A stretch of DNA of 64,000 bases from Candidatus Endomicrobium embiratermitis (GTDB lineage: Bacteria; Elusimicrobiota; Endomicrobiia; Endomicrobiales; Endomicrobiaceae). Both the position numbers and the translations under genes were made by a program. This document shows positions 131-59,677 of this stretch, piece by piece. Under the pieces are notes generated by a model. It saw nothing but the letters and a program-made list of their open reading frames with translations, searched no databases and had not been told where the DNA came from. Position 1 is the first letter of the stretch; each line of letters begins with the position of its first letter. The stretch is from positions 1-64,000 of the forward strand of contig WQYI01000010.1 of NCBI GenBank assembly GCA_009781315.1, given 5' to 3'.

Positions 131-190
131 TATTTGTGCGAAGCACTCAACAATTCCTCACTCCTAACTTCTCATTCCTCACTGTCGTTA
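131..190. repeat. Heptamer inverted-repeat element, right half only
   Basis: A small hairpin (GTGC-GAA-GCAC, 136-146) is followed by 7-bp units of the type ATTCCTC/ACTCCTA and the border TGTCGTTA (183-190), directly before the rmuC ribosome binding site. The left half is missing and its place is taken by the IS end, so the IS may have inserted into or deleted part of the element. The arm is the reverse complement of the TTAGGAG-type arm at 25111-25146. Confidence 0.6.
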
Positions 191-202
191 AAAAGAGGTT
201 TT

Positions 203-1384: not shown

Positions 1385-2078
1385 ACCCGAATTGGAAGCA
1401 AAAGTTTTGCAGCTTAAAAACGCTTTGCAAAAAGCCGGCATTGAAGCTTTGTTCGGCGAAGAAAGTTTCAGGGATTATCTTGTTATCGCGGATGTTTTTA
1501 AAAACGGAAAAAAATTTGGCAAAATTTCCATGTATTACAAGCCGTCAAAAAATACTTTCTCCGTTAAAAAGCAAATTTCAAACGCCGAAATCGAAAAAGA
1601 AATAGACGCTGTCTGGGACAATCTCAACGGTTCGGAAGTTTACGGCGCAGAAAGCGGGATATATGAAATATTTGTCGACGGGTCGTATATAGGCGGCGTT
1701 ACCGGATACGGAGCGGTAATTTTTCTCGGAAAAGAAGTTAAGACCGAGCTTTCCGGAACTGTCGCGGATACGCAGTTCAGACAATTCGGCGGAGAATTGA
1801 GGTCGGTTATAGAAGCGCTGAAATGGTGCGAAAAAAACGGGGTCTCCAAAACCAGAATAAACTATGATTACGAAGGAATAGAAAAATTTGCGACCGGCAG
1901 ATGGCAGCCTAAAACCGGTCTTTCGAAGGAGTATGTGGATTTTATAAGAAAAACGAAAGTGGAAATAGAATGGAGGCACATAAAAAGCCATACGGGAAAC
2001 TCTAAAAACGATATTGCCGACAAGCTCGCCAAAGAAGCAGCCTTAAAAGGCAATTTACAATTAACAAATAACAGTTGA
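1371..2078 (+). CDS. RNase H-like protein with N-terminal extension
   Basis: The C-terminal part (about residues 95-225) is an RNase HI fold. It has IFVDGSYIGG with the first catalytic Asp, an Glu in GGELRSVIEAL, an Asp in NYDYEGIEKF and a final Asp in KNDIADKLAKEA, so the acidic active site looks complete. RNase HI cuts RNA in RNA-DNA hybrids. The N-terminal ~90 residues are not recognised and differ from the classical hybrid-binding domain. The last residues (NLQLTNNS) are encoded by a heptamer repeat downstream, so the original C-terminus was probably at about KEAALK. It overlaps rmuC by 14 bp. Confidence 0.8.
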   Translation: MSLYKPELEAKVLQLKNALQKAGIEALFGEESFRDYLVIADVFKNGKKFGKISMYYKPSKNTFSVKKQISNAEIEKEIDAVWDNLNGSEVYGAESGIYEIFVDGSYIGGVTGYGAVIFLGKEVKTELSGTVADTQFRQFGGELRSVIEALKWCEKNGVSKTRINYDYEGIEKFATGRWQPKTGLSKEYVDFIRKTKVEIEWRHIKSHTGNSKNDIADKLAKEAALKGNLQLTNNS

Positions 2079-2081
2079 CAA
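2043..2081. repeat. Heptamer repeat, left arm only, overlapping a gene end
   Basis: TTAAAAGGCA followed by CAATTTA/CAATTAA/CAAATAA-type 7-bp units covers the last codons and the stop of the RNase H-like gene. It matches the left arms at 54788 and 38965 in unit sequence and border, but in a different reading frame. No right arm is seen before the next gene. Confidence 0.55.
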
Positions 2082-2126
2082 TGGATGTTATTTTGATCGC
2101 TTGATAATAAATAAAGGAGATGTCAA

Positions 2127-6958: not shown

Positions 6959-7963
6959 ATGAATATCAAAAACCAGATTCTTGAACTTGCAAAAAAAGTC
7001 AAAGGAAAAGTAATACTTCCGGAAAGCAGCGACGTCAGAGTGTTAAAAGCAGCGCAAATGCTTACGGAAGACGGAATATGTTCCGTAGTGCTGCCGTCGG
7101 ACGATATAGACGCCGTAAAGAAAAACGCCGCAACGGCCGGAATAAATCTTGACGGGGTAGAGCTTATAAAAATAGACAGGGCGCTTCTTGAAGATAAAAA
7201 AATCGAAGAATTTGTCGACGCGCGCGCAAAAAAAGGAATGAATCCGGAAGAAGCTCTGAATCTTTTAAAAAATCCGGTTTATTTTTCGATGATGTATTTG
7301 AAAAGCGGGAAATGCGATGCCTGCGTGTGCGGCGCTGTTACCGATACGGCGGATGTTCTAAGAGCGGGTATTCACGTAGTTGGGACTGCGGAGGGAATAA
7401 AGCTGATATCTTCTTATTTTCTTATGATTCCTCCGGAAAAGCACAAAGTCGCAAAAGAATCGGTATTGTTTGCCGATTGTGGGGTCAATCCCGACCCTCA
7501 GGCTTTGGGTTTGAAAGATATTGCCGTATCTACAATAGGCAATTTTCAAAAACTTTTCCCGGGAAGAGAAGTTAACGCCGCGTTTTTGTCTTTCTCGACA
7601 AAAGGCAGCGCAAAGAACAAGGCTTTGGACAAAATAACGGAAGCTGCGGAACTTGTGAAAAAATATTATGAAGGTAAAGACGGAATTAATATCGACGGAG
7701 AACTTCAGTTTGATGCGGCTGTAATGCCGGAAGTAGGCAAGAAAAAAGCGCCGGGTTCAAAAGTCGCGGGTAAAGCTAATATTTTTATATTTCCGGATTT
7801 GAACGCAGGCAATATAGGATATAAAATGGCCGAGAGATACGGCGGTTTTCAGGCGATAGGGCCTCTTATCCAGGGACTTGCTTTGCCCGTAAGCGATTTG
7901 AGCCGCGGCTGTAATGCCGACGATATATGCTTGGCAAGCGCGATAATGCTGTTACAGAAATAA
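6959..7963 (+). CDS. pta: Phosphate acetyltransferase
   Basis: The enzyme interconverts acetyl-CoA and acetyl phosphate. The 334-residue protein is the short catalytic-only form, without the N-terminal regulatory domain of E. coli Pta. Typical segments are VILPESSDVRVLKAA near the start, CVCGAVTDTADVLRAG, and a C-terminal NIGYKMAERYGGFQAIGPLIQGL. The start at 6959 has AGGAG 6 bases upstream and is preferred to the ATG at 6953, which overlaps that Shine-Dalgarno. No acetate kinase gene is adjacent. With the upstream synthetases it fits acetate metabolism in a fermenter. Confidence 0.92.
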   Translation: MNIKNQILELAKKVKGKVILPESSDVRVLKAAQMLTEDGICSVVLPSDDIDAVKKNAATAGINLDGVELIKIDRALLEDKKIEEFVDARAKKGMNPEEALNLLKNPVYFSMMYLKSGKCDACVCGAVTDTADVLRAGIHVVGTAEGIKLISSYFLMIPPEKHKVAKESVLFADCGVNPDPQALGLKDIAVSTIGNFQKLFPGREVNAAFLSFSTKGSAKNKALDKITEAAELVKKYYEGKDGINIDGELQFDAAVMPEVGKKKAPGSKVAGKANIFIFPDLNAGNIGYKMAERYGGFQAIGPLIQGLALPVSDLSRGCNADDICLASAIMLLQK

Positions 7964-7964
7964 A

Positions 7965-8060
7965 TAACAATTAACAAATTACAATTAACGATAACTACGA
8001 ATAACCGGTAAGCGGTCTTTTGTTTTTAATTGTTCTTTGTAAATTGTAAATTATTAATTG
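7965..8060. repeat. Heptamer inverted-repeat element
   Basis: Left arm of CAATTAA/CAAATTA units starting right after the pta stop codon, a short middle, and a right arm of TTAATTG/TTTGTAAATTG units ending near 8060. The arms are imperfect reverse complements. The border motif TAACGRCA is not clear here; this looks like a decayed copy. Confidence 0.55.
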
Positions 8061-23901: not shown

Positions 23902-24627
23902 ATGGAACGGATTATATGTAAAAATTATGATGAAGTGTCGCTTTTGGGAGCAAACATTTTAGCAAAGCGGATTAAAGAAAATCCAAAAAGCATACTGGGT
24001 CTGGCGACCGGCTCGACTCCCGTAGGAATGTATAAAAAACTGGTAGAGATGCACAGTAAAAACGGACTTGATTTTTCAGAAATCCGGACGTTTAATCTGG
24101 ATGAATACTATCCGATAAAAAAGAGCAATGAGCAGAGTTATGACTTTTTTATGTGGGATAATCTGTTTTCCCATATCAATATAAAACGGGAAAACGTACA
24201 TTTGCCAAACGGGGAAAGCGCGGATCCGGAAAAAGAATGTATTGCTTATGAGCGAATGCTGGCAGAGGCAGGCGGCGTGGATATACAAGTGCTTGGGATT
24301 GGCATCAACGGGCATATCGGTTTCAATGAACCGGAAAATGAACTTAAGCTTGCAACCCATCTGACCAGTCTCACTCCGAGTACTATAGATGCTAATTCGC
24401 GTTTCTTTAGAAATATTGAAGATGTGCCGACCAAAGCGCTTACTATGGGAATGGGGACGATCATGAAAGCAAAATCGATTCTTTTGCTGATTACCGGCGA
24501 GAATAAAGCTCCGGTCGTCAAAAAACTCTTTTCCGGAGTTGCCACTACCGGCGTACCGGCTAGTTTTTTACATCTCCATTCTAATGTCATAGTTCTTCTG
24601 GATGAGGCTGCCGCAAAACTGCTATAA
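23902..24627 (+). CDS. nagB: Glucosamine-6-phosphate deaminase
   Basis: NagB converts glucosamine-6-phosphate to fructose-6-phosphate and ammonia, the reverse direction of GlmS. The 241-residue protein has GLATGSTPVGMY, the TFNLDEYYPI motif, VLGIGINGHIGFNEP with catalytic His, and MGMGTIMKAK near the end. Arg codons are mostly CGG/CGA, unlike the AGA/AGG of glmS next door, which suggests acquisition from another genome. Having nagB directly after glmS would allow a futile cycle unless regulated. The start at 23902 is preceded by AAAAGAGAG. Confidence 0.93.
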   Translation: MERIICKNYDEVSLLGANILAKRIKENPKSILGLATGSTPVGMYKKLVEMHSKNGLDFSEIRTFNLDEYYPIKKSNEQSYDFFMWDNLFSHINIKRENVHLPNGESADPEKECIAYERMLAEAGGVDIQVLGIGINGHIGFNEPENELKLATHLTSLTPSTIDANSRFFRNIEDVPTKALTMGMGTIMKAKSILLLITGENKAPVVKKLFSGVATTGVPASFLHLHSNVIVLLDEAAAKLL

Positions 24628-24766
24628 CGGCAATTAACAATGAATAATTAATAATTGTCGTGTTTCGGCTTTGCCGAAACCTATTATAAGCTTGCGCGAG
24701 GCAAAAGCACATAAATTGTTAACTGTTAACTGTTAACTGTTAATTGTTAATTGTCAATTGTCGTTA
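24625..24766. repeat. Heptamer inverted-repeat element, complete and well preserved
   Basis: The left border TAACGGCA (24625-24632) begins with the nagB stop codon; the right border is TGTCGTTA (24759-24766), its near inverted repeat. The left arm is made of CAATTAA/CAATGAA/TAATTAA units. The right arm is an exact 7-bp series of CTGTTAA and TTGTTAA units. The centre holds a hairpin (GTTTCGGC-TTT-GCCGAAAC), the spacer CTATTATAAGC and a second, weaker GCGCGAGGC structure. The acpS ribosome binding site follows immediately. Confidence 0.75.
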
Positions 24767-24777
24767 AAAAGGGTTTT

Positions 24778-25113: not shown

Positions 25114-25146
25114 AGACAGTTAGGAGTGAGGAATTAGGAGTTAGGA
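25111..25146. repeat. Heptamer repeat, solo arm providing a ribosome binding site
   Basis: TAAAGACA (25111-25118) starts with the acpS stop codon and is followed by AGTTAGG/AGTGAGG/AATTAGG/AGTTAGG units that run straight into the next start codon. The AGGAG inside these units lies 7 bases before that ATG, so the repeat itself is the Shine-Dalgarno. No central hairpin or right arm is present. Confidence 0.65.
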
Positions 25147-26025
25147 ATGAAAGGCTCTCCTCTTTTTTCTGATTTTTATTTAAAGCTGAGAAGAAATCCC
25201 GATACTAGCAAATACGATTACGGTCATGTTTTGGTTATAGCGGGTTCAAAATATATGCCGGGCGCGGGAATTTTGTGCTGTAACGCCGCTTTGCGCACCG
25301 GAGCGGGACTCGTAACTTATGCCGTTCAAAGCGGTTTTTTAAACGCGGTTTACGCGCTTTCAAAACCCGAAACAATGTATTTTGTTTACGAGACGGCAGG
25401 CGGCATTTTAAAATTTATTTCAGACAGAAAAGTTTCGTCCGTTATAATAGGCCCCGGACTTGAAAGAAACAAAGTTTCAAGCAGAGCTTCGAGCGAAGCT
25501 CTTTATGACTTTATAAATGAAATTATTTCTTCCGTAACGATTCCCGTAGTTTTAGACGCTTGCGCGATTTCAACTCTCAACGAAAATTTTGAAGTTTTAA
25601 AGAAAGCAAAAGCCCGTATTGTTATTACTCCGCACGAAGGGGAGTTTGCGAAACTTATCGGCAAACCCGTTTCTTACGTCAAAGAAAACAGGGAAAAATT
25701 AGCTGAAAATTTTGCCAAGGATAATTCGCTTATCTGCGTTTTAAAAGGCAATAAAACTTTAGTTTCGGATGGAAAAACTTTGTATAAGAATAATTCCGGC
25801 ACGCCCGCAATGGCTAGCGCCGGAAGCGGGGATGTTTTAAGCGGTATGATAGCGGCTTTGTCTGTTATAGGAGGCGATTTATTTGAGGCCGTAAAATTTT
25901 CGGCGTATGTCCACGGTTTGGCCGGAGAAATATCGGAAAAGGACAAAGGCATAGGGGTTATCGCAAGCGACATAGTTGAAAATATTCCTTACGCGCTAAA
26001 GGCAAAGTATAAAGACAAAGTGTAA
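25147..26025 (+). CDS. nnrD: ADP/ATP-dependent NAD(P)H-hydrate dehydratase
   Basis: The enzyme repairs hydrated NADH/NADPH at the expense of ADP or ATP. The 292-residue protein is the C-terminal dehydratase domain alone: GHVLVIAGSKYMPGAG, NAALRTGAGLVTYAV, VIIGPGLERNK, PVVLDACAI, ITPHEGEFAKL, CVLKGNKTLVSDG and the catalytic AGSGDVLSGMIAAL. The NnrE epimerase domain usually fused upstream is absent, so an epimerase should be encoded elsewhere. The last residues (KDKV) are encoded by a downstream repeat, which changes the native C-terminus. Confidence 0.88.
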   Translation: MKGSPLFSDFYLKLRRNPDTSKYDYGHVLVIAGSKYMPGAGILCCNAALRTGAGLVTYAVQSGFLNAVYALSKPETMYFVYETAGGILKFISDRKVSSVIIGPGLERNKVSSRASSEALYDFINEIISSVTIPVVLDACAISTLNENFEVLKKAKARIVITPHEGEFAKLIGKPVSYVKENREKLAENFAKDNSLICVLKGNKTLVSDGKTLYKNNSGTPAMASAGSGDVLSGMIAALSVIGGDLFEAVKFSAYVHGLAGEISEKDKGIGVIASDIVENIPYALKAKYKDKV

Positions 26026-26138
26026 AGTGAAAAGTGCAAATTATGAGTTTCGTCTGCGACGAAACCTATTATAAGTTTTCGCAAAGCGAAAACACGATAT
26101 TTTCACTTTCAACTTTTCAATTTTCACTTTGCCGTTTA
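26010..26138. repeat. Heptamer inverted-repeat element (AAAGTGA units), complete
   Basis: The left border TAAAGACA (26010-26017) lies inside the last codons of nnrD; the right border is TGCCGTTTA (26130-26138). The left arm has AAAGTGT/AAAGTGA/AAAGTGC units, the right arm TTTTCAC/TTTCAAC/TTTTCAA/TTTTCAC units. The centre carries two hairpins, GTTTCGTC-TGC-GACGAAAC and TTTTCGC-AAA-GCGAAAA, separated by CTATTATAAG. The M20 ribosome binding site follows at once. Confidence 0.75.
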
Positions 26139-27375: not shown

Positions 27376-27462
27376 ACTAGTTGAGTTTGAATTTCGGAGA
27401 GCGGAGCTGTTTTGTTTTTGTGAAACAAAAACTTACTAACTCCTCACTTCAAACTGTCGTTA
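27376..27462. repeat. Heptamer inverted-repeat element, decayed
   Basis: The right side is well preserved: ACTAACTCCTCACTTCAAAC units and the border TGTCGTTA (27455-27462). The left arm (TAGTTGAGTTTGAATTTCGGAG) is partly degenerate but still complementary. The centre contains a TTTTGTTTTTGTGAAACAAAAA hairpin. The next gene's AAAAGGAG follows directly. Confidence 0.5.
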
Positions 27463-27474
27463 AAAGGAGATATC

Positions 27475-32300: not shown

Positions 32301-32685
32301 AGGGATATTGCTGAGCACCGGAAGGGAAAAAGACAAAGTAAAATTTATGGAAGTAGTAGACAATATATATAAATTAGGGGTTCCTGTATACGCGACAAAA
32401 GGAACGGGCGAATATCTGCAAAAGCACGGTTATGAGGTAAATATTGTTCATTGGAACAGAACACCGAGAGCCGTTGACACGATTATAGACGGCAAAGTTG
32501 ATTTTGTAATAAACATAAACAAAAGTTTGACGGTAGAGGAGCTTAAAAACAATTCTGAAATAAGAAAAACCGCGGTACGGTGCAGTTGTTCAATTTTAAC
32601 GAATCTTGAAAAAGCAATGTCATATCTGAGAGCGTTTGATTCATACGAAAAGCTTCAAAATATAGAAGAGATGATAAGCCTTTAA
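29374..32685 (+). CDS. carB: Carbamoyl-phosphate synthase large subunit
   Basis: CarB makes carbamoyl phosphate from bicarbonate, ammonia and two ATP for pyrimidines and arginine. The 1103-residue protein has both ATP-grasp halves (first about 10-430, second about 580-960), an oligomerisation domain and a C-terminal MGS-like regulatory domain. Motifs such as LGSGALSIGQAGEFDYSGSQ, CNMENMDPMGIHTG and GECNVQYAL resemble the eukaryotic CAD/CPS I and Bacteroidetes-type enzymes more than E. coli CarB, as far as I recall those sequences. The stop codon is part of a repeat element border. It pairs with a CarA that appears glutaminase-defective. Confidence 0.95.
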   Translation: MPILDFLLPKNGKKQKVILLGSGALSIGQAGEFDYSGSQAIKALVEEDLDVIVINPNIASVQTNSGPNKKVYFYPITPFWVEKIIKIEKPAAIISSFGGQTSLNCVIELEKTGVLKKYGVKVLGTQVDALEMSEDRDLFAKQMQSINLPIAKSRTANTVDEALKIAEEIGYPVITRSAFALGGLGSGLARTPAELKRLTQAALMSSPQVLVEKSLHGWKEIEYEVMRDKSGNCITICNMENMDPMGIHTGDSIVIAPCQSINNTEVGMLREAAIKIAKSVGIIGECNVQYALDPNGYDFYVIEINARLSRSSALASKATGYPIAYIAAKVVIGFDLLELKNPVTGTTSAFYEPSLDYVSLKFPRWDLSKFSGVSKLLGTQMKSVGEVMAIGRNFCEVIQKALRMVNENEEGITVSVFKNAADDELEKELLDPTNLRVFAIYESFKRGKTLEYVYDKTKIDYWFLSHIHYLASLETELLDFFAVKVKRDVVTKEEIYKDFSKIEKQHFIRIKSRGFSDFQLTKIYLSAVSTGKIKLTTREIRNLSLGIRKLRKKLKIQPVVKQIDTTSSEYATKSNYLYLTYDGVHSDVSVKKNKSSIITLGSGSYRIGSSLEFDWCSVMTSSYFKQKKNDSVIINCNPETVSTDFSASDRLYFEELSFERVLDIIDIESPKGVIACMGGQNPNNLIQPLSEVKVNILGHSPKSVEGAEDRVKFSAMLDKFGIDQPEWTSATSIEEIEKFIEKVGFPVLIRPSFVLSGTLMNVANDKKSLDYYLSLTKDISADFPVVISKFILDAKEIECDGIAKNGEVMMSLVSEHVENAGVHSGDATMVFPAQKLYGHTVNVIKDITRKIIKGLNLNGPFNIQFIAKDNDVKVIECNARASRSFPFISKVSGVNLTEVACKVMNNEKVKEILIDESKIPYIGVKASMFSFQRLDGADPVTGVEMASTGEVGCLGKKFDEAMLLSMEATKVVKPKKGILLSTGREKDKVKFMEVVDNIYKLGVPVYATKGTGEYLQKHGYEVNIVHWNRTPRAVDTIIDGKVDFVININKSLTVEELKNNSEIRKTAVRCSCSILTNLEKAMSYLRAFDSYEKLQNIEEMISL

Positions 32686-32785
32686 CGGCAGATGATGAGA
32701 AGGTGAGATGTTGGGAAGTTTAGCAACGACAAGAGAATAGTGTCTTTGCTCAACATCCCATCTTCCCATCATCTCAACTTCCGCA
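32683..32785. repeat. Heptamer inverted-repeat element (GATGAGA units)
   Basis: The left border TAACGGCA (32683-32690) begins with the carB stop codon. The left arm is GATGATG/AGAAGGT/GAGATGT/TGGGAAG; the right arm is CTCAACATCCCATCTTCCCATC..., its imperfect reverse complement in 7-bp steps. The centre includes GCAACGACAAGAG. The right border is degenerate (TTCCGC) and abuts the AGGAG of the next gene. Confidence 0.65.
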
Positions 32786-32795
32786 GGAGCAGTGT

Positions 32796-36611: not shown

Positions 36612-36716
36612 TAACGACAATTAACAAAGTATAATTAACAAATAACAAAAAGAGTAAGTTTTTAGTATTTGTCGTTAATTGTTAATTGAAAATTATTATT
36701 TATAAATTGTAGTTAA
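36612..36716. repeat. Heptamer inverted-repeat element (CAATTAA units)
   Basis: The left border TAACGACA (36612-36619) follows the DUF1846 stop by two bases. CAATTAA/CAAAGTA/TAATTAA units form the left arm. A TGTCGTTA (36670-36677) sits inside, and the right arm of TTAATTG-type units ends in TGTAGTTA (36709-36716) before AAAAAGGAG. The two right-hand borders suggest a nested or duplicated element. Confidence 0.65.
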
Positions 36717-38030: not shown

Positions 38031-38130
38031 CGGCAGAAGATGAGAAGGTGGGAGGGTGAGCGAAGGCAAAGACTTGTACGGCCAGAGCTGCTCTCAGCTT
38101 CTCAACATCTCATCATCTCAACTTCTATAA
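38028..38130. repeat. Heptamer inverted-repeat element (GATGAGA units)
   Basis: TAACGGCA (38028-38035) starts with the phoH stop codon. The left arm is GAAGATGAGAAGGTGGGAGG; the right arm is CTTCTCAACATCTCATCATC followed by TCAACTTC. A central GAGCTGCTCTCAGC region is partly self-complementary. The right border has decayed to TATAAGG. Confidence 0.65.
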
Positions 38131-38137
38131 GGTTTTC

Positions 38138-38992
38138 ATGAGCGAAAAATACGTAGATTTACATATACATACCAACTATTCCGACGGGGCGTTTTCTCCT
38201 GCCGAAATTGTGGAGTATGCGAAAAAAACAAATCTTGCCGCTATAAGCATTACCGATCACGATTCTGTTGACGGTATTGACGAAGCGCTGCAGGCCGCGC
38301 AAGGTTCTGATATTGAGATAATACCGGGAATCGAACTTTCTTCAAGTTCAACGGATTCCGACGGGCAGATAACCGAGATGCATATTTTAGGTTATTACAT
38401 AGATTACAAATCAGAAAAACTTAACGAAACGTTGTCGGTTTTCAGAAAAACCCGCCTTGAAAGAGCTTATGAAATTCTTAAAAAATTAAAAGAAAACGGC
38501 GTTAACTTAAAAGATGAAAGTTTTCTGAAAAATGTCGGAAAAAAATCAATAGGCAGGCTGCATTTTGCAAAAGCTATGATAAACGAAAGTTTTGCGGGCA
38601 GCGTTCAGGATGCTTTTCAGAGATATCTTGCCGTAAACAAACCCGCGTATGTTCCTAAATATTATATGAGCGCGGCAGATGCAATAAATCTTATCTTAAG
38701 CGTCGGCGGAATTCCCGTGATGGCGCATCCTTATTATATTCACTATACAGATAAAGCAATGTTTAAATCGCTTATTGACAGCGGGCTTAAAGGCATTGAG
38801 GCTTGGCATTCAAAACATCCTGAAAGCGCCGTAAGAAAGTTTTTAGCGTTGGCTGAAGAATTTAATTTAATAGCGACAGGAGGCTCTGACTGCCACGGAA
38901 CATATAAAAATGAGCCTCCATTGATAGGCAGAATAAAGGTTCCTTATTCCGTTGTGGAAAACCTAAAAAGGCAAATAACAATTAATAATTAA
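38138..38992 (+). CDS. PHP-domain metal-dependent phosphoesterase
   Basis: The 284-residue protein has the PHP active-site motifs DLHIHTNYSDG, ITDHDSVDG, IPGIELSS, MAHPYYIH and TGGSDCHG, which bind up to three metal ions. It is similar in layout to the YciV/RNase AM group, which removes 5' nucleotides from RNA or 3',5'-bisphosphonucleotides; the exact substrate cannot be decided. The C-terminal residues RQITINN are encoded by a repeat element and are identical to the end of MetK in this window, so they are not part of the ancestral protein. Confidence 0.87.
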   Translation: MSEKYVDLHIHTNYSDGAFSPAEIVEYAKKTNLAAISITDHDSVDGIDEALQAAQGSDIEIIPGIELSSSSTDSDGQITEMHILGYYIDYKSEKLNETLSVFRKTRLERAYEILKKLKENGVNLKDESFLKNVGKKSIGRLHFAKAMINESFAGSVQDAFQRYLAVNKPAYVPKYYMSAADAINLILSVGGIPVMAHPYYIHYTDKAMFKSLIDSGLKGIEAWHSKHPESAVRKFLALAEEFNLIATGGSDCHGTYKNEPPLIGRIKVPYSVVENLKRQITINN

Positions 38993-39050
38993 CGATTGGC
39001 AATTATTGTATGCTTCGTATTTATTTGTTAATTGTTATTTGTAAATTGAT
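38965..39050. repeat. Heptamer inverted-repeat element overlapping a gene end
   Basis: CTAAAAAGGCAAATAACAAT begins inside the PHP gene and supplies its last codons and stop. The left arm continues with TAATTAA/CGATTGG units. The right arm is TTATTTG/TTAATTG/TTATTTG/TAAATTG. The centre has a weak GCAATTATTGTATGC structure. The right border is degenerate and runs to within 6 bases of the next start. Confidence 0.65.
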
Positions 39051-41637: not shown

Positions 41638-42734
41638 TGACCTGTATGAAACAAATTGACGTCATATTAAATAAAGCCGCAAATACCCACTCTTTGGATA
41701 AAGAAGAAATACTGGAACTTTTAACAGCCGGAGACGACCGCGCGCTTTTTGCCGCGGCGGACGCGGTGCGTAAAAAATATGTCGGAGACGAAGTTCATCT
41801 GCGAGGTTTGATAGAATTTTCAAATTATTGCAAACGGAATTGTCTTTACTGCGGTTTGAGAATGGATAATGACAAACTTGTACGTTACCGCTTAGAACCG
41901 AAAGATATAATTGAACTTGCGTCTAAAGCCAAATGTTACGGCTATAAAACAATCGTCTTGCAGTCCGGCGAAGATTCGTATTATACAATCGATAAAATGA
42001 CGGAAATTATATCGGGCATAAAAAAACTGGACTTGGCTTTAACTTTGAGCATAGGAGAGAAAACTTACGAAGAATACAAAGCGTACAAACAAGCCGGAGC
42101 GGACAGATACCTTTTAAGAATTGAAACTACGGATGAAGAACTTTATAACGCGCTAGACCCTCAAATGAGTTTGGAAAACAGAGCGGAGTGTCTGGAAAAT
42201 TTAAAAAAACTCGGGTACGAAACAGGTTCGGGAATAATAGCCGGGCTTCCCGGACAAAGCTTGGAAAGTATAGCCAAAGATATTCTTTTTCTGAAATCTA
42301 TTGATGTGGATATGGCGGGAATAGGTCCTTTTATATATAATCCAAATACGCCGATTTTTAAAGACTGTCATTCTAAAGCGCAAAGCGCCGAAGAATCCGC
42401 CGTTTTAAGCGGAAGGGGAAACTATTTCGATTTATCTTTAAAAGTCATGGCGATTTTACGTTTAATAATGCCTGATATAAATATTCCCGCGACTACTGCA
42501 ATGGAAACTTTAAATCCTGACGGCCGCATAATAGCTTTGCAAAGCGGTGCGAATGTCATAATGCCAAATGTTACCGAAGGTGAAGGCAGAAAGTTTTATG
42601 AAATATACCCGGGAAAAGTATGCGTTTTGGAAACTCCTAAAGCCGGCAGATTAAATATAGAAGATAAAATAAAATCCATAGGGCGGACGGTTTCAACGGG
42701 GAAAGGATTTCGCATAAAGAAGGAACATAAATGA
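41637..42734 (+). CDS. hydE: [FeFe]-hydrogenase maturation radical SAM enzyme HydE
   Basis: HydE is one of three enzymes that assemble the H-cluster of [FeFe] hydrogenases. The 365-residue radical SAM protein has the cluster motif CKRNCLYCG (Cys65, 69, 72) preceded by HLRGLIEFSNY, then VLQSGED, RYLLRIETT, SGIIAGLPGQS and PATTAMETLNPDGR, which match HydE better than biotin synthase. It shares the TAATG junction with the flippase gene and overlaps mnmA by 4 bases. A second ATG at 41646 is a possible start. hydF, hydG and the hydrogenase are not in the window. Its presence implies fermentative hydrogen metabolism. Confidence 0.87.
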   Translation: MTCMKQIDVILNKAANTHSLDKEEILELLTAGDDRALFAAADAVRKKYVGDEVHLRGLIEFSNYCKRNCLYCGLRMDNDKLVRYRLEPKDIIELASKAKCYGYKTIVLQSGEDSYYTIDKMTEIISGIKKLDLALTLSIGEKTYEEYKAYKQAGADRYLLRIETTDEELYNALDPQMSLENRAECLENLKKLGYETGSGIIAGLPGQSLESIAKDILFLKSIDVDMAGIGPFIYNPNTPIFKDCHSKAQSAEESAVLSGRGNYFDLSLKVMAILRLIMPDINIPATTAMETLNPDGRIIALQSGANVIMPNVTEGEGRKFYEIYPGKVCVLETPKAGRLNIEDKIKSIGRTVSTGKGFRIKKEHK

Positions 42735-43801
42735 AAATATTAGTCGGTTTAAGCGGAGGAGTGGATTCCGCGATTGCCTCTTATTTATTAAAAAAGCAGG
42801 GGCATGAAGTATTTGGCGCGATGATGTCTGTGTGGGATAATTCTTTGCCTGAGTTGAAAGTTAAAGAAGGCAATGCCTGTTTTAGTCCGAAAGATAAGGA
42901 TATTGAAGCCGTAAAAAAAATAGCGGATTTTTTAAAAATCCGATACGATATAATAGACTGCAGCGAAGAATACAAACGCGTAGTTATCGAAAATTTTAAA
43001 AGCGAATATAAATCGGGGCGCACTCCAAACCCATGCGTATGGTGCAACGCTTATATTAAGTTCGGAGTTTTGCCTGCAGCCGCTAAACGAAACGGATTTA
43101 AGTTTGATAAGTTCGCAACCGGACATTATGCGAATATAGTTTATAATGACGAAATCAAAATGTATCAGCTTAAAAAAGCTAAAGATTTGAAAAAAGACCA
43201 GACATATTTTTTATACCGCCTTTCCCAAAAAACCTTGTCAGAAACCCTCTTTCCTCTTGGAAATCTTACAAAAGACGAAGTTCGTACTATTGCCAAAGAT
43301 ATTGGTCTTCCTGTTGCCCAAAAACCCGACAGCCAGGATTTTTACTGCGGGGATTATAACGATATTCTGGGCTTTCCCGCAAATCCGGGAAATATAGTAG
43401 ATAAAAACGGAAAAGTTTTAGGAAAACACAACGGAATTTGGAATTATACTATAGGCAAGCGCAAAGGTTTGGGTCTTCCGGGAGGAACAAAAGAGCCCTT
43501 GTACGTTATCAATATTTCGGCAAAACAAAATGCGGTTGTTTTAGGATCGAAAGACGATTTATATTCAAAGTCTTTGACTGCCGAAAAAATTTCATGGGGT
43601 TCGATTGACGCGCCGAAAGAGTCGGTTAGAGTAATGGCAAAGATACGTCAGCAGCATACTCCTGCGCAAGCCGAAGTTATTGCAAAAGACGAAAACAACG
43701 CGGAAGTAATTTTTGATTCCCCGCAGATGTCCGTAACATCGGGACAAAGCGTGGTTTTTTATAAAGACGATATAGTTTTAGGCGGAGGAATTATAAGATA
43801 A
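42731..43801 (+). CDS. mnmA: tRNA-specific 2-thiouridylase MnmA
   Basis: MnmA adds sulfur to the wobble uridine of tRNAs for Lys, Glu and Gln. The 356-residue enzyme has the PP-loop SGGVDS at residues 8-13, TPNPCVWCNAYIKF with the first catalytic Cys, FATGHYANIV, KDQTYFLYRL and PDSQDFYCGDY with the second Cys, then the C-terminal beta domains. All key residues are present. The start overlaps hydE by 4 bases (ATGA). The stop TAA opens a repeat border. Confidence 0.94.
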   Translation: MKILVGLSGGVDSAIASYLLKKQGHEVFGAMMSVWDNSLPELKVKEGNACFSPKDKDIEAVKKIADFLKIRYDIIDCSEEYKRVVIENFKSEYKSGRTPNPCVWCNAYIKFGVLPAAAKRNGFKFDKFATGHYANIVYNDEIKMYQLKKAKDLKKDQTYFLYRLSQKTLSETLFPLGNLTKDEVRTIAKDIGLPVAQKPDSQDFYCGDYNDILGFPANPGNIVDKNGKVLGKHNGIWNYTIGKRKGLGLPGGTKEPLYVINISAKQNAVVLGSKDDLYSKSLTAEKISWGSIDAPKESVRVMAKIRQQHTPAQAEVIAKDENNAEVIFDSPQMSVTSGQSVVFYKDDIVLGGGIIR

Positions 43802-43886
43802 AGACAGTTAATGAGTAGTTGTAGAGTGCGCGAAGCGCACATATTAATAAGCTGGGCAAAGCCCCGCACGACAACTGCTCATTACT
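43799..43886. repeat. Heptamer inverted-repeat element
   Basis: TAAAGACA (43799-43806) begins with the mnmA stop codon. The left arm GTTAATGAGTAGTTGTAGAG is complementary to CGACAACTGCTCATTAC on the right. The centre holds a hairpin GTGCGC-GAA-GCGCAC, the spacer ATATTAATAAG and a second GGGC-AAA-GCCC hairpin, the same layout as in the elements at 24625 and 26010. Confidence 0.7.
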
Positions 43887-43914
43887 TGAAATATTAAAAA
43901 TAAATAGCTATTTT
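43886..43914 (+). promoter_or_regulatory. Possible promoter for the fusion gene, near-leaderless
   Basis: TTGAAA (43886-43891) and TATTTT (43909-43914) are 17 bases apart. The candidate start codons at 43915 and 43921 follow directly, so the transcript would begin at or next to the start codon. No Shine-Dalgarno is seen. Confidence 0.4.
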
Positions 43915-46900
43915 ATGTATATGGCGGACAAAGTTATCGGGTTAACTATTTCAGTATTTATTGCCGCAAAACGTGGAATTTGTATTTTATTGCCCGCGGT
44001 ATTTTTATGCGTGAATTCTTTTGCGTCGGAAGCCGGTGCGAAAATTCATATAGATTCTTCTAAAAATTACAAAGTTATTGCGTCTGACATTAAAGACGGA
44101 AATAACGGAACGGTCATACATATTTATGACTTGCATTGCGACGGGTATGTTCAAAACAATATAGCCGCCATTTTAGAAGAATTAGACAGCCTTTATAATT
44201 TAAAACATGTTTATTTGGAAGGAGCCGACGATAAATTTGATATGTCATGGGCGGATAAGATTTTGCCAAGTCAAAAAGATTTTGTTTTAAGAAGTTTAGT
44301 GGACAATGGCTTTTTGACGGGCGCGGAATATTATGCTATTTCCAAAGGAAAAAAATTTATAAAAGGGCTTGAAAAAGAAAGTGTTCATAAAGGAAATATA
44401 CTGCGTTTTTCAAATATAAAAAGACAGGAAAAAGAATTAAAAAGTAGTATTGAACTTATCGATAGACGGATAGAGGCGCTTCAGACTAAATATTTGGGTT
44501 CTCATAACAAAAAGCTGAACAAAATCATAAAAAAATACAGAAACTCGGAAATTGACGCCGAGATTTATTATCAAAAAATGTTTTCTTTGCGCGGTATTGA
44601 CATAAAAAGTTACCCCGAAATTGAAAAATATCTTTACTGCTTAAAATTTTTTAAAACAGTCGATTCTAAAAAACTCGATAAAGAATTTTTACGATTTCAA
44701 CAGGTGTTAAAAGAGACCGTTTCGTATAAGGAGTATAGTGAAATTGCCGCTCGAAATGCAGAGCTGCCTTACGACCGAAAAGCGCACGAAGTTTTTCTGC
44801 GGTATAATTTTGATAAAGACAAAAGGTTTTTAGAAATTGCCAAATATTTTGAATATCTGTTTGTTTGGGAGCAAATAAATCCCGAAAAGATTATAGCCGA
44901 AGACGGGGCGCTGACAGATGCGATAAGAGAGGAAATTTCAAAAGACGAAACGGAAAGAGATATTGCTTTTGTTTATCATTATTGGGGCATGCTTAAAGAC
45001 TGCTTAAATTTAAAAATATCCGCAAAAGATTATGCGCGTATTATTTCGGATTTTGGAAAATTTAAGTTTTTTGTCAAAAAGTATTTTGAAGACAATGATT
45101 TTTTCCGTATAGAGCCTTTGATTGTCGAGATATCGCGGTATTACGAAATAAATATTGCAAGAAATGATCATTTTGCCGGCAATATCGATATGGAACAGCA
45201 TGAGGATTCTCCGGCTGTCGTTATAGCAGGGGGGTTTCATGCAAAGGGATTGAGGGAACTGTTTGAAAAGAAAAACGTAAATTTTATTTCGATAATTCCT
45301 AATATGGGTTCTAAAAAAATGTTTGAAAATTACGGGATGTACGAATTTATTTTGGAAAAACAGGCTTTGATGTTTTTAAATCAGACTCTTGCGCCCGCCG
45401 CAGGACAAATAGAATTTATATCGTCGTCTGGTAAAGAAATAAATTTGCTTATAAACCGTCAAAATGTCAGGCTTATTAAGAATGAAAACGGATTTTTTGA
45501 AATTGAAAACCTCGTAGAAAACGTTTCTAAAAGCGATATTAAAATTGTTGAAAGTACCGTAAACCGTTCGGCTGAAATCTTAAAAAGAATATTGAGGCTT
45601 TTAAACCCCGCCAATGCGCCGGAAATAATTTATCAGACCATTAAATCCTGTTCTTTGTTTTTAGCGCAAAACGGATATCTGGCTAATTACGGACTTATTT
45701 ACGATATCGCCCAAGACGAAAATATAAGAAAAATTCTGATTAACGAAAACATAAGCGCTGAAGAATTAAGCATGCTGCCGGACATTTTGCAAAAATTGAT
45801 ATTAAAACATTCGGCAATCAAATCTGAAAAAGAAAAGAAAATAAGAGTGCTTCTAGTCCGCACCAGACTTCCCGAACAGAAAAGAAAACCCACCAGATGG
45901 CCTGGCGGATTATTGGCTTTAGCATCGTCGATAAAAGATGAAGATTTCAGAGAGAAATTTCTAAAAAATAAAGGCATAGAAAGCGCGCATGCGCAATATG
46001 ATGTCAATATTATAGATTTGGCGGCCGAAGAAGCGGATTTTGATTTTATGGGTTTTATAAAATCATATAAGCCTGATATTGTCGGAATATCGGCCGTTAC
46101 GCCCGAGATTGAGGCGGCAAAAGATTTAGCAAAAGATATAAAAGCCGAGCTTCCCGCAATAACCTTGATAATAGGCGGACATCATGTGTCTTCTCTGCCC
46201 GAAGAAACTTTAAGCGATTCCGCTTTTGACATAGGCGTCATAGGCGAAGGCGAGGAAACTTTTATAGAATTACTAAATGCTTTTGCTGCAGGACGCACGA
46301 ATTTCGGCAATATTGCGGGGCTTGCGGTCAAGAAATCAAACGGAGAAATCATAACTACGCAAAGCAGGCAGTTTGTCATGAGCGCTGACGAATATCCTTT
46401 AGCCGGACAGCAAATGGATTTATTGCATTTGGAAGACTATGCTCAAATAAATTTTAACGAGAATAAACGTTTAGGCTATGCGGGGGTATTGTTTACGTCA
46501 AGAGGGTGCCCCGGCAAATGTTCCTTTTGCGCGGCAAAAGGTGTTTTTGGAAGCAAACTTCACGCAAAGAGAAGCGCGCAGCATATCGTTTCGGAGGTAG
46601 AGTATTTATATTCAAGAGGCATAAATTTATTTTTCATTTCCGACGATTTTTTTACGGTGGATAAAGAGCGCGTAAAAGAACTTGCCGATCTGATAGAGGA
46701 AAAAAATATGCAGTTAGGTTTCTATGTAATGACAAGGGCCGATTCTGTTAACGAAGAAATCGCAAAAGATCTAAAGCGTATGGGCGTGGAAAGCGTAGCA
46801 TTTGGAGTTGAAAGCGGCGATGAGAGAATTCTCAATGAAGTCATAGGAAAAAATATATCCAATGCAAGAGTAATTGAATCCACGCGGATTATAAAGAAGT

Positions 46901-47679
46901 ACAATATGCAAGTCCGCTATTATATGATGGTTGGGCTTCCGGAGCAAAATTGGGAAAGCATGAAAAAATCGATAGATTTTATTTTACAGGCAAGTCCGGA
47001 CATCGTAGACATTGCCGTCGCAACGCCTTATCCCGGAAGCGACTTATTCGGGGATCCCAGAATTTTTACTTCGGTAAAATATTCCGATTTTAGGCATAAT
47101 CCCGAAAGCGCGCCGACAAAAGAAAAAGGAATTCGCCCTGCGGTTACCCGTACCGGCGTAATGACAAGCGAAGACATTACACTTAGCGCCCAATTAATGA
47201 GAAATATTTTCGACAGCAGAAACAATAAAAAAGAATTTGACAAATATATGGATGAACTAAACAAAAAAGTTGAAGCGGAACGGCAAAACGCCGGGAAAAA
47301 TGAAATTCAGCCGCCGCCGTCCGGCGTTTTGAACGGCGTTTATGTCGCCGTCGAAAAAAATGAGGAAATGATTTTTTGGAATTGGCAAAATACGGGTTTA
47401 AAAACTTCGCGGGGCGAAATAATTTGGATGAGCGTTAATGACGGCAAATTAATTTTGTTTGCAAATAATGCGGCTCATGCCGACGTGGTAGAAATTTTTA
47501 ATAATGCGCTTTTTCAATCTCCATCGTCCGCAAGAACGGCATATATTTCCAAGCTGCTAAATGAAAAACTTGCTGCCGTCAACATTAAAATAGAAAAACC
47601 GGTTGTAGTCTTTAACATGTCCGGACATAATAGGCGTTACAATAGCAGGCACATTTCTTTTATTTTGTCGGTCGCTTAA
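43915..47679 (+). CDS. Exported fusion protein: Tiki/ChaN-like domain, B12-binding domain, radical SAM domain
   Basis: This 1254-residue protein has a signal-peptide-like N-terminus (hydrophobic stretch about 20-38, ending FASEAG). A large domain (about 60-480) with YDLHCDG (His74), VYLEGADD (Glu102) and AGGFHAKGL (His442) resembles the Tiki/TraB/ChaN group of metal- or haem-linked hydrolases. From residue 643 a B12-binding fold follows (VLLVRTRLP, DIVGISAVTPEI, IIGGHHVSSLP, GVIGEGEETF). Then comes a radical SAM domain with CPGKCSFC (Cys865, 869, 872) and an unassigned end. A radical SAM enzyme behind a signal peptide is very unusual. The first domain is homologous to the protein beginning at 62783. 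A second possible start is at 43921. Confidence 0.72.
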   Translation: MYMADKVIGLTISVFIAAKRGICILLPAVFLCVNSFASEAGAKIHIDSSKNYKVIASDIKDGNNGTVIHIYDLHCDGYVQNNIAAILEELDSLYNLKHVYLEGADDKFDMSWADKILPSQKDFVLRSLVDNGFLTGAEYYAISKGKKFIKGLEKESVHKGNILRFSNIKRQEKELKSSIELIDRRIEALQTKYLGSHNKKLNKIIKKYRNSEIDAEIYYQKMFSLRGIDIKSYPEIEKYLYCLKFFKTVDSKKLDKEFLRFQQVLKETVSYKEYSEIAARNAELPYDRKAHEVFLRYNFDKDKRFLEIAKYFEYLFVWEQINPEKIIAEDGALTDAIREEISKDETERDIAFVYHYWGMLKDCLNLKISAKDYARIISDFGKFKFFVKKYFEDNDFFRIEPLIVEISRYYEINIARNDHFAGNIDMEQHEDSPAVVIAGGFHAKGLRELFEKKNVNFISIIPNMGSKKMFENYGMYEFILEKQALMFLNQTLAPAAGQIEFISSSGKEINLLINRQNVRLIKNENGFFEIENLVENVSKSDIKIVESTVNRSAEILKRILRLLNPANAPEIIYQTIKSCSLFLAQNGYLANYGLIYDIAQDENIRKILINENISAEELSMLPDILQKLILKHSAIKSEKEKKIRVLLVRTRLPEQKRKPTRWPGGLLALASSIKDEDFREKFLKNKGIESAHAQYDVNIIDLAAEEADFDFMGFIKSYKPDIVGISAVTPEIEAAKDLAKDIKAELPAITLIIGGHHVSSLPEETLSDSAFDIGVIGEGEETFIELLNAFAAGRTNFGNIAGLAVKKSNGEIITTQSRQFVMSADEYPLAGQQMDLLHLEDYAQINFNENKRLGYAGVLFTSRGCPGKCSFCAAKGVFGSKLHAKRSAQHIVSEVEYLYSRGINLFFISDDFFTVDKERVKELADLIEEKNMQLGFYVMTRADSVNEEIAKDLKRMGVESVAFGVESGDERILNEVIGKNISNARVIESTRIIKKYNMQVRYYMMVGLPEQNWESMKKSIDFILQASPDIVDIAVATPYPGSDLFGDPRIFTSVKYSDFRHNPESAPTKEKGIRPAVTRTGVMTSEDITLSAQLMRNIFDSRNNKKEFDKYMDELNKKVEAERQNAGKNEIQPPPSGVLNGVYVAVEKNEEMIFWNWQNTGLKTSRGEIIWMSVNDGKLILFANNAAHADVVEIFNNALFQSPSSARTAYISKLLNEKLAAVNIKIEKPVVVFNMSGHNRRYNSRHISFILSVA

Positions 47680-47734
47680 CGGCAAAACGGCAAGTAAAAA
47701 GTAACACATAAAATGTAAAAGTTCAAATGTCGTC
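47677..47734. repeat. Heptamer-type element remnant
   Basis: TAACGGCA (47677-47684) begins with the stop codon of the fusion gene, and TGTCGT occurs at 47729-47734. The intervening AGTAAAA/AGTAACA/CATAAAA-like sequence is low in complexity but has no clear inverted arms, so this is probably a decayed copy. Confidence 0.4.
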
Positions 47735-48880: not shown

Positions 48881-49006
48881 TGTCATCCCCGAATGTTTCA
48901 AGAGTTTTTTTCAAAACTCTGCCTTCGGCAGTACGGGGATCCATGTTGGCAGCTAGATAAGATAAAAATAAAAATGGATTCCCGATTACTAATTTCGGGA
49001 ATGACA
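48881..49006. repeat. TGTCATCC-type intergenic element
   Basis: It begins TGTCATCCCCG directly after a TAG stop codon and ends GGGAATGACA. The first palindrome includes CCCCG...CGGGGATCC with an inner AGAGTTTT/AAAACTCT stem; the last is ATTCCCGA...TTTCGGGAAT. The outer ends TGTCAT/ATGACA are inverted repeats. Confidence 0.6.
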
Positions 49007-49025
49007 ACTTTAAAAGGGAATGAAA

Positions 49026-50327: not shown

Positions 50328-50430
50328 AAAGACAATTAATAATTAACAAATAACAATTTACAATTAACGACTAAAAACTATATCTGCCGTTGCCTTTAAT
50401 TGTTATTTGAAAATTGTAAATTGCAGTTAG
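50328..50430. repeat. Heptamer inverted-repeat element (CAATTAA units)
   Basis: AAAGACAATTAATAATTAAC starts directly after the stop codon. The left arm has CAATTAA/TAATTAA/CAAATAA/CAATTTA units and the right arm TTAATTG/TTATTTG/AAAATTG/TAAATTG, ending near TGCAGTTA (50422-50429). The centre is ACGACTAAAAACTATATCTGCCG. It lies just upstream of the recA promoter. Confidence 0.65.
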
Positions 50431-51589: not shown

Positions 51590-52525
51590 ATGAAAGTTTT
51601 AGTTACCGGCGGCGCGGGGTTTATAGGTTCCAATATTTCCGACGCTTTAATCGCAAACGGTCATAAGGCTGTTGTAATAGACAATTTATCTTCAGGAAAA
51701 AAAGAAAACATAAATAAAAAAGCTAAATTTTACAATGTAGATATAATTGACGAAACAAAAATAAAAGCCGTATTTAAAAAAGAAAAACCGAATATTGTAA
51801 TTCACTGCGCGGCGCAGATTGACGTGAGAAAGTCCGTTTCGGATCCTAAATACGATGCGAATATAAATATTTTAGGTTCCATTAATATACTTGACGCGTG
51901 CGTTGAAAATAAAGTTAAAAAGATTTTATTTGCTTCGTCGGGCGGTACGATTTACGGGGAATGCAAAAACAAAGCTCCCGATGAAAATTCGTTTCCTAAT
52001 CCCTTGTCGCCGTACGGCATAGCCAAACATTCAGTAGAAAATTACATAAAATTTTACGGCGAAATTTACGGTTTAAAATACACGATTTTCAGATATGGAA
52101 ATATTTACGGACCGAGACAGGACCCGAAAGGCGAAGCCGGCGTAATTGCCATATTTACTTCAAGAATGTTAAATAACGAATCCGTGACTGTTTTTGGCAA
52201 CGGAAAACAGATGAGAGATTATGTCTATGTTTCTGATGTGGTAAGCGCAAATGTCGCCGCGTTAAAAAAAGCCGATAATCAAATAATAAATATCGGTACA
52301 AACAAAGCCGTTCCGTTAAACGACATAGTAAAAATTATGTCGCGTTTATCCGAAACCGATAAAAAAGCGGTGTATAAACCTAAAAGACCGGGAGAGCTGT
52401 TTAAAAGTTTTTTAAACGCAAAAAAAGCCGGAAAGTTTTTGAACTGGCGGCCGAAAGTAAACATTGAAGAAGGCATAAAGAAAACCTTGGAATACTTCAA
52501 GGATGATTGGAAGATGGGAGGTTGA
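51590..52525 (+). CDS. UDP-glucose 4-epimerase-like NAD-dependent epimerase
   Basis: The 311-residue short-chain dehydrogenase has VTGGAGFIGSNISDALI, VIDNLSSGKKENI, HCAAQIDVRKSV, a Ser-Ser-Gly-Gly-containing FASSGGTIYGE, the YGIAKHSVE catalytic motif and RYGNIYGPRQDP. It would epimerise UDP-glucose or a related sugar. The C-terminal WKMGG residues come from a repeat element downstream. GGAG precedes the start; the gene follows recA by 29 bases and a nucleotidyltransferase gene follows, so it probably serves surface polysaccharide assembly. Confidence 0.85.
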   Translation: MKVLVTGGAGFIGSNISDALIANGHKAVVIDNLSSGKKENINKKAKFYNVDIIDETKIKAVFKKEKPNIVIHCAAQIDVRKSVSDPKYDANINILGSINILDACVENKVKKILFASSGGTIYGECKNKAPDENSFPNPLSPYGIAKHSVENYIKFYGEIYGLKYTIFRYGNIYGPRQDPKGEAGVIAIFTSRMLNNESVTVFGNGKQMRDYVYVSDVVSANVAALKKADNQIINIGTNKAVPLNDIVKIMSRLSETDKKAVYKPKRPGELFKSFLNAKKAGKFLNWRPKVNIEEGIKKTLEYFKDDWKMGG

Positions 52526-52601
52526 GAAGATGAGCAACAGCAACGACTTTAACGACAGGAGCTCCTCTCAACATCTCAACTTCTTAACTTCTCACCTTCT
52601 A
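52505..52601. repeat. Heptamer inverted-repeat element (GATGAGA units) overlapping a gene end
   Basis: GATTGGA/AGATGGG/AGGTTGA/GAAGATG units begin inside the epimerase gene and supply its last codons and stop. The right arm is CTCCTCT/CAACATC/TCAACTT/CTTAACT/TCTCACC/TTCT. The centre contains GCAACGACTTTAACGACAGG and a GGAGCTCC palindrome. It is the same unit family as at 32683 and 38028. Confidence 0.65.

Positions 52602-54787: not shown

Positions 54788-54815
<28 letters not shown>
53640..54815 (+). CDS. metK: S-adenosylmethionine synthetase
   Basis: MetK forms SAM from methionine and ATP. The 391-residue enzyme has [50 protein letters not shown] and [19 protein letters not shown], all hallmark motifs. 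The natural end is near ALNKVEEL; the final RQITINN is encoded by an inserted repeat and is identical to the end of the PHP protein at 38992. ahcY follows, so SAM supply and recycling of its product are linked. No SAM riboswitch is seen in the short upstream gap. Confidence 0.96.
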
Positions 54816-56177
<1,362 letters not shown>

Positions 56178-56269: not shown

Positions 56270-56441
56270 CGTAATCTTCGGGGAAGGTGAGGGGACTGAG
56301 TTCGGAACAAAGTTCCTAATTCCTTACCGGCAGTGAAAAAGCCGAAAAAGCTTTTAAGCCTGCGACTCTGTCGTAAAAGACAGACTGAATCCGTGTAAAT
56401 CGGATGCCGACGGTAAAGTCCGGATGAGAGAAGATAATACG
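56270..56441 (+). ncRNA. FMN riboswitch (RFN element)
   Basis: The region carries the conserved RFN blocks in order: ATCTTCGGGGAAGG, a long variable arm, ATTCCTTACCGGCAGTG, AAGCCTGCGA, GTGTAAATCGGATGCCGACG and GTAAAGTCCGGATGAGAGAAGAT. The closing stem pairs ATCTTC (near 56274) with GAAGAT (near 56430). FMN binding would favour the terminator that follows, shutting down riboflavin genes when FMN is plentiful. Confidence 0.93.
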
Positions 56442-58183: not shown

Positions 58184-58306
58184 TGTCATTCTGAAAGCCG
58201 CAGGCTTGAAGAATCCAAAGAACTTTGGATATTTCGCTTCGCTCAATATGACAAACACGAGTGACTTTAACGTGGATACCCGATAGAGACATTCGGGTTG
58301 ATGACA
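58184..58306. repeat. TGTCATTC-type intergenic element
   Basis: It begins TGTCATTCTGAAAGCC and ends GGTTGATGACA. Inner palindromes are GCCGCAGGC, CCAAAGAACTTTGG and ATACCCGATA...TTCGGGTTG. TGTCAT and ATGACA at the ends are inverted repeats, as in the copies at 14702 and 48881. It separates ribE from ribBA inside the operon. Confidence 0.6.
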
Positions 58307-59540: not shown

Positions 59541-59677
59541 AAAAGGCAAAGTGAAAATTGAAAAGTTGAAAGTGAAAATATTGTGTTTTCGCGAAGCGAA
59601 AACTAGTTAATTGCATTTCGGCTTTGCCGAAATTCATAATTTACACTTTTCACTCTTCACTTTTAACTTTGTCGTTA
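59538..59677. repeat. Heptamer inverted-repeat element (AAAGTGA units), reversed centre
   Basis: TAAAAAAGGCA begins with the ribBA stop codon; the right border is TGTCGTTA (59670-59677). The left arm is AAAGTGA/AAATTGA/AAAGTTG/AAAGTGA, the right arm TTTACAC/TTTTCAC/TCTTCAC/TTTTAAC. The centre carries TTTTCGC-GAA-GCGAAAA first and TTTCGGC-TTT-GCCGAAA second, the opposite order to the elements at 24625 and 26010, so the centre is inverted here. The ribH AAGGAG follows. Confidence 0.75.

Follow-up and report, generated by a model that had tools for sequence, protein, structure and literature searches.

The 64,000-nucleotide window analyzed here is contig C10 of Candidatus Endomicrobium embiratermitis, whose 1.9-Mb genome comprises 25 contigs, and nearly all of its genes run in the same direction. 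Between its nagB-like and acpS-like genes lies a palindromic element with two arms of CAATTAA units on a core of two hairpins, which is the focal copy of this analysis. A preliminary description, made from the sequence, had listed 17 sites in the window as members of one family of inverted repeats, in which borders enclose arms of varying unit families around a core of hairpins. All 17 were inspected and each contains an arm or a two-armed element (Table 1), including the single arms or fragments at 131, 2043, 25111, and 47677, which had been described as such. The observation is thus confirmed, and the elements prove to be dispersed and polymorphic between relatives, as detailed below; the interpretation attached to it is partly supported.

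Table 1. Positions of the elements and their parts in the window
Feature	Position	Strand	Remark
Focal element, CAATTAA, two arms on two-hairpin core	24625..24767		Between nagB-like and acpS-like genes
Focal left border	24625..24632	+	TAACGGCA; overlaps upstream stop codon
Focal left arm, degenerate CAATTAA units	24631..24657	+	
Focal core hairpin H1, TTTCGGC-TTT-GCCGAAA	24663..24679		21 exact copies in genome
Focal core hairpin H2, diverged GTTTTYGC-NNN-GCRAAAAC	24690..24708		
Focal right arm, TTAACTG/TTAATTG units	24714..24761	+	
Focal right border	24759..24767	+	TGTCGTTAA
AAAGTKN element, H1-H2 core	26005..26136		132 bits
CAATTAA element, H1-H2 core	54791..54924		Encodes C-terminal tail of MetK-like protein
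AAAGTKN element, core reversed (H2-H1)	59542..59677		93% identical over 144 nt to contig C3 copy
Octamer GAWGNTGR element	32686..32790		Left arm alone kept in G003
Octamer element	38031..38126		
Octamer element	52499..52600		Absent in G001 and G003 (6-7 nt gap)
CAATTAA element	7962..8060		
CAATTAA element	36612..36713		G001, G003: short gaps without element
CAATTAA element	38967..39048		Same gap: TTAGGAATT arms in G001; CAAAGAACAATTAA arms and H1-H2 core in G003
CAATTAA element	50331..50427		Same gap in G003: AATTACG arms
AGTARTK-type element, GTGCGC/GCGGGGC core	43799..43890		
Decayed element, TTAGGAG-like right arm	27376..27468		TGTCGTTAA border
Single left arm, AGGARTK	25114..25148	+	
Single right arm (CTCCTAA type)	131..191	+	TGTCGTTAA border
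Single CAATTAA arm	2049..2084	+	Runs into 3' end of RNase HI-like ORF
Fragment: doubled AACGGCA border and AAAGTA-type arm	47678..47727	+	

A full copy is short and non-coding. Its ends are formed by a terminal inverted border (AACGRCA…TGYCGTT), inside which two arms, inverted relative to each other and made of degenerate 7- or 8-bp words, enclose a core that often contains two short hairpins. Among the 56 two-armed copies listed, all 48 in which both arms could be classified have the same unit family on both sides, the families being CAATTAA, AAAGTKN, AGGARTK, AGTARTK, and AATTACG, as well as the octamers GAWGNTGR and GATGCATA. According to the unit tables, each family has some nearly fixed and some free positions: AAAGT is fixed and positions 6 and 7 are free in the AAAGTKN family, positions 3, 5, and 8 are free in GAWGNTGR, and positions 1, 2, 4, and 6 are invariant in AGGARTK. 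The units had been described as 7 bp long throughout, which holds for most sites but not for those at 32683, 38028, and 52505, which are built of 8-bp GAWGNTGR units. The border, described as constant, was recovered as AACNRCA at 25 of the 54 ends of the core family, against 1 expected by shuffling, and is common to 7-mer and 8-mer families and to different cores; it is nevertheless degenerate, with TTAA in place at just 15 of the 54 ends. This low count, together with the lack of any visible duplication at empty sites, speaks against the earlier suggestion that TTAA represents a target duplication.

The elements are tightly fitted between genes, with the arm starting a median of 3 nt after the upstream stop codon and ending a median of 11 nt before the next start. 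In most cases the left border and the stop codon before it overlap, and in several genes (e.g., at 38965 and 54788) the C-terminal residues and the stop are encoded by the element itself. Elements occur also between divergent genes. An Rfam search of the window returned an FMN riboswitch as its sole match and no element family; this riboswitch (RF00050, 85.6 bits; 56270-56439) lies upstream of a ribD-like gene in a riboflavin operon. Separately, the window includes a 1254-aa ORF (43915-47679), whose translation has a long N-terminal part and a B12-binding/radical SAM-like C-terminal part.

Dispersal and presence/absence of the elements

Tandem arrays were counted in 864 kb of the genome, taken in stretches. 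Period 7 accounted for 182 arrays, 150 of them intergenic, and period 8 for 55 (38 intergenic), with 0-7 intergenic arrays for each of the periods 5, 6, and 9-12. Copies at unrelated loci have as much as 93% identity across 144 nt, with the similarity ending near the borders. A core-family model built from 26 copies and searched in 77 family genomes yielded at least 44 matches each in G000, G003, G081, and G082 (Endomicrobiaceae-like), 43 in G083, 32 in G001, 12 in G002, 3 in G004, and 2 in G015, these being match numbers rather than exact copy numbers, as some elements were matched on both strands. There were no matches in the remaining 68 of the 77. The octamer family is likewise patchy, with 50-71 matches in five genomes and zero with reversed-pattern controls. 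The model thus passed the check that the preliminary description had set for it, with matches abundant in some genomes and lacking in most relatives.

Orthologous gaps with and without an element, the subject of the other check proposed there, were found in two congeners, G001 and G003, whose genes are roughly 75-89% identical to those of the genome studied here. In the comparison with G001, 32 gaps carry an element only in the present genome, 12 in both, 5 only in G001, and 71 in neither. For about half of the co-occupied gaps, the two elements lack sequence similarity to each other; unlike elements may be found at one site simply because a permissive gap received an insertion twice, independently. 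The gaps at C1:185647 and C1:201761 hold octamer elements in G003 and another family here; similar elements are shared in the orthologous gaps at C1:346671 and C2:137998. The acpS operon of G023, which belongs to a different genus, has closely spaced genes and no element. Because neither a target duplication nor an exact end was resolved, insertion as a discrete event is deduced from near-empty sites whose flanks have diverged.

The element at L222:2901-3033 (contig C4:42901) and its G003 ortholog have the left border CTACAGAGTG in common and apparently opposite core orders, and the G003 ortholog has a CGTCATTGCGGGCTTGACCCGCAATC repeat nested inside. Two further palindromic repeats, at 58190-58300 (GTCATTCTGA..GAAGAATCC type; absent in G001) and 48881-49019 (GTCATYCCCG..GGGAATGACA type), are either missing in congeners or replaced there by something else.

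Repeats were also found within coding sequences. A hydE-like radical SAM gene contains an in-frame GTCATTCT..GAAGAATCC repeat (42360-42398) that is also present in G003; the same protein loop is occupied in frame by AGTGAGGAGTTAACGG in G001 and, in G002, by an AAAGTGA arm with an AACGRCA border on each side. In-frame repeats in this gene thus extend to four species, and single arms lie also inside long ORFs. A 2123-aa ORF of contig C1 has internal repeats of another kind (L021:5270-6269), about 260 bp long and 69-81% mutually identical.

The hairpin core and its arms

Twenty-seven copies have in common a core of two triloop hairpins, H1 (TTTCGGC-NNN-GCCGAAA) followed by H2 (GTTTTYGC-NNN-GCRAAAAC), and this one core carries at least four arm families (AAAGT, CAATT, AGGAATG, and AGGAAGT). 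In an alignment of 26-27 copies, 396 of 405 core pairs are Watson-Crick, as opposed to 117-172 when the pairing is slid, with C-G/T-A compensation in H2. For the RNA of the focal copy, the computed folding energy is -46 kcal/mol (z -6.3); this value and the intergenic excess of periods 7 and 8 show that the repeats are not a product of chance.

The length of the spacer between the hairpins differs with the arms. In the genome studied here, a 10-nt spacer is found, apart from the focal copy, almost exclusively with AAAGT arms (14 cores), and five of seven CAATT-armed cores have a 12-nt spacer. The focal copy, with its CAATTAA arms, is of the 10-nt type, and the cores closest to its own are AAAGT-armed, so that it looks like an arm-swap chimera. 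The nagB-acpS gap of G001 is also occupied, by an element that agrees with the focal copy in core type and orientation but has AAAGTKN arms. Since the G001 core is not the nearest relative of the focal core, the two occupants of this gap may instead go back to independent insertions. Taken together, the cores common to different arm families and the chimeric appearance of the focal copy indicate, but do not prove, that families exchange arms on a common core.

The two arms of a copy do not appear to be kept alike. In one test, the two AAAGT arms of an element resembled each other less than arms of different elements did (999 of 1000 permutations gave at least as much likeness); a larger test of arms from the genome studied here gave only a weak tendency (P 0.17), and a species-pooled test gave the opposite result owing to species bias. 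Homogenization of arms within elements was therefore not seen, and what is claimed is only an absence of matching. Variable arm positions that are unmatched within a copy argue against both ongoing homogenization by template switching and selection for perfect pairing.

Candidate routes of copying

The elements probably constitute a superfamily of non-autonomous, foldback- or MITE-like palindromes that would be copied by the host rather than by a resident transposase and would exchange arms on a common core. That copies have reached new intergenic sites as whole elements is shown by dispersed near-identical copies and by presence/absence; the putative enzymology is host replication or recombination, namely, ectopic template switching from one repeat to another that has borders and words in common with it. 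The elements would be tolerated in the interval from a stop codon to the following ribosome-binding site and, in some cases, within a gene whose reading frame they keep. Each would form a stable hairpin in the mRNA, which we think is mostly a by-product and not the reason for its existence. A point against this explanation is the lack of arm homogenization, which would be expected if template switching were dominant inside elements. A related possibility, to which we give rather little weight, is that the elements are semi-permanent and that both arms are replaced wholesale and at once by another word family, with borders and core staying in place and no transposase taking part.

The main rival to host copying is that these are classic MITEs, whose AACGRCA/TGYCGTT ends are recognized by a specific transposase, present or recently lost, each arm family being a separate MITE derivative and all of them using one set of permissive gaps for insertion. 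Inverted borders that occur at the ends more often than by chance, dispersed copies, and a patchy distribution between close relatives are all in keeping with it. However, no target duplication is visible at the near-empty sites with their diverged flanks, and one border serves 7-mer and 8-mer families as well as different cores. The search for a mobilizer was also negative. It covered three families, Y1_Tnp, RVT_1, and DDE_Tnp_1, and brought up no candidate parental transposase-coding element among them; under the classic-MITE account, the transposase would belong to another family (e.g., IS110, IS256, or Mu-like). Y1_Tnp was not found in G002 or G003, both of which bear elements, RVT_1 and DDE_Tnp_1 have no match in the four congeners, and G002 thus has none of the three; the genus offers, for comparison, a single-contig genome with elements and no match to any of these families. 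The distribution of RAYT/Y1, reverse transcriptase, or DDE_Tnp_1 consequently does not track the elements, and for this reason we think host copying more likely than a resident transposase and regard the classic-MITE account as unlikely. Even less probable is that the elements are functional RNA hairpins at operon junctions (proposed to act in mRNA end protection, as RNase sites, or in translational insulation) that are kept by selection while their sequence drifts fast. Their close fit between stop and start codons, the strong fold, and the Watson-Crick pairing and compensation in the core count in favor of such a role. On the other hand, many orthologous gaps have no element at all, elements are found between divergent genes, and variable arm positions do not covary within elements. 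Core orientation relative to transcription is 13:11, i.e., random, and the few core mismatches on the sense strand comprise three G-U and three A-C, with no strand bias, so that, in these small numbers, neither wobble nor fixed orientation signals an RNA function and no one-way RNA signal is apparent. On these two results, DNA that is dispersed and mostly selfish is a better match than a directional RNA signal. The least probable account, and a very unlikely one, is pure mutation, in which 7/8-bp polymerase slippage and quasi-palindrome template switching would generate the palindromes in situ with no mobility. The dominance of periods 7 and 8 and the slippage proposed by Mrazek (cited in PMC4679880 and PMC4692102) are in its favor, as is the capacity of template switching to homogenize arms and invert spacers (PMC8604942). 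It is already weakened by dispersed copies, since the same core and arms recur at unrelated loci, and further by arms that are not homogenized within elements and by the sharp absence from most relatives.

Relation to known repeat systems

That heptamer repeats are over-represented in bacteria was noted as early as 2007, and no explanation has become accepted (see the reviews of the subject in PMC4692102 and PMC4679880). In a search of about 85,000 genomes for the word AAAGTKM, in which only the inverted architecture is informative, arrays were found in many phyla among the matches listed. Eight of 80 such loci among these matches have an inverted partner at most 230 nt downstream and none has one upstream, against 0 of 2091 control windows. 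Further inverted arrays occur in Bacteroidota, Acidobacteria, Bacillota, Planctomycetes, Patescibacteria, and an archaeon. A universal word set across phyla was considered and set aside as too weakly indicated, external words matching those of the present genome in 20% of cases versus 11% for letter-shuffled words (P 0.03). If cassette-like turnover of arms were true, the inverted 7/8-mer arrays of several other phyla would reflect the same general process.

In the freely accessible literature, no paper was found on an element that has borders and carries exchangeable word arms on one core, and a term search of the Endomicrobia genome paper (PMC11257099) returned nothing on such repeats. The preliminary description had recognized no such bordered element, but a complete lack of precedent is not supported: convergent inverted arrays of degenerate heptamers were reported in Xanthomonas (Rehm et al. 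2015, PMC4692102). These (GGGANTN)n arrays, which are the closest precedent, are intergenic, mostly near the upstream stop, and rare between divergent genes; there are 70-75 convergent inverted pairs per genome, and the same gaps hold different sequences in the two species. The degenerate heptamer with fixed and free positions and the convergent inverted intergenic pairs are common to both systems. In Xanthomonas, there is one G-rich unit family, discussed in terms of G-quadruplexes, and no border or hairpin core was reported; here, there are at least six unit families, both 7- and 8-mers, common borders, and one core under different arms, and GGG is absent from the units of the main families. 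The TAACTGA repeats of Beggiatoaceae, Cyanobacteria, and Bacteroidetes (MacGregor 2015, PMC4679880) are similar in being intergenic heptamer arrays near gene starts with a patchy phylogenetic spread, but involve a single word in 169 direct sets and one indirect set, without core or borders.

Other close precedents are MITEs and the Rickettsia palindromic elements (PMC10969869), which are also dispersed palindromes of about 100-150 bp, in several families and sometimes in frame. Compared by description, they differ from the present elements, whose arms are tandem 7/8-mers, whose arm families differ on one core, and for which no target duplication and, in the three-family screen, no parental transposon was found. 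Foldback elements (Drosophila FB; Galileo, PMC3573991) likewise have long, internally tandem-repetitive terminal inverted repeats around a core, but are eukaryotic and of kilobase scale, with a known transposase in the case of Galileo, and homology is not expected. REP/BIME sequences are intergenic hairpin repeats that adjoin stop codons, as here, but are associated with RAYT (Y1) transposases, and Y1 was not found in two element-bearing congeners.

Palindromes that are dispersed over the genome, vary in presence between related species, and bear different words on one core suggest a class of small mobile-like DNA that is still under-described. The genus lends itself to its study, since a given gap may be empty in one genome and hold either of two families in others. 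Because the heptamer and octamer arrays are the arms of dispersed palindromes with common borders and cores, the question moves away from the slippage of one word, as posed for other heptamer arrays, toward how whole palindromes are copied and change their words.
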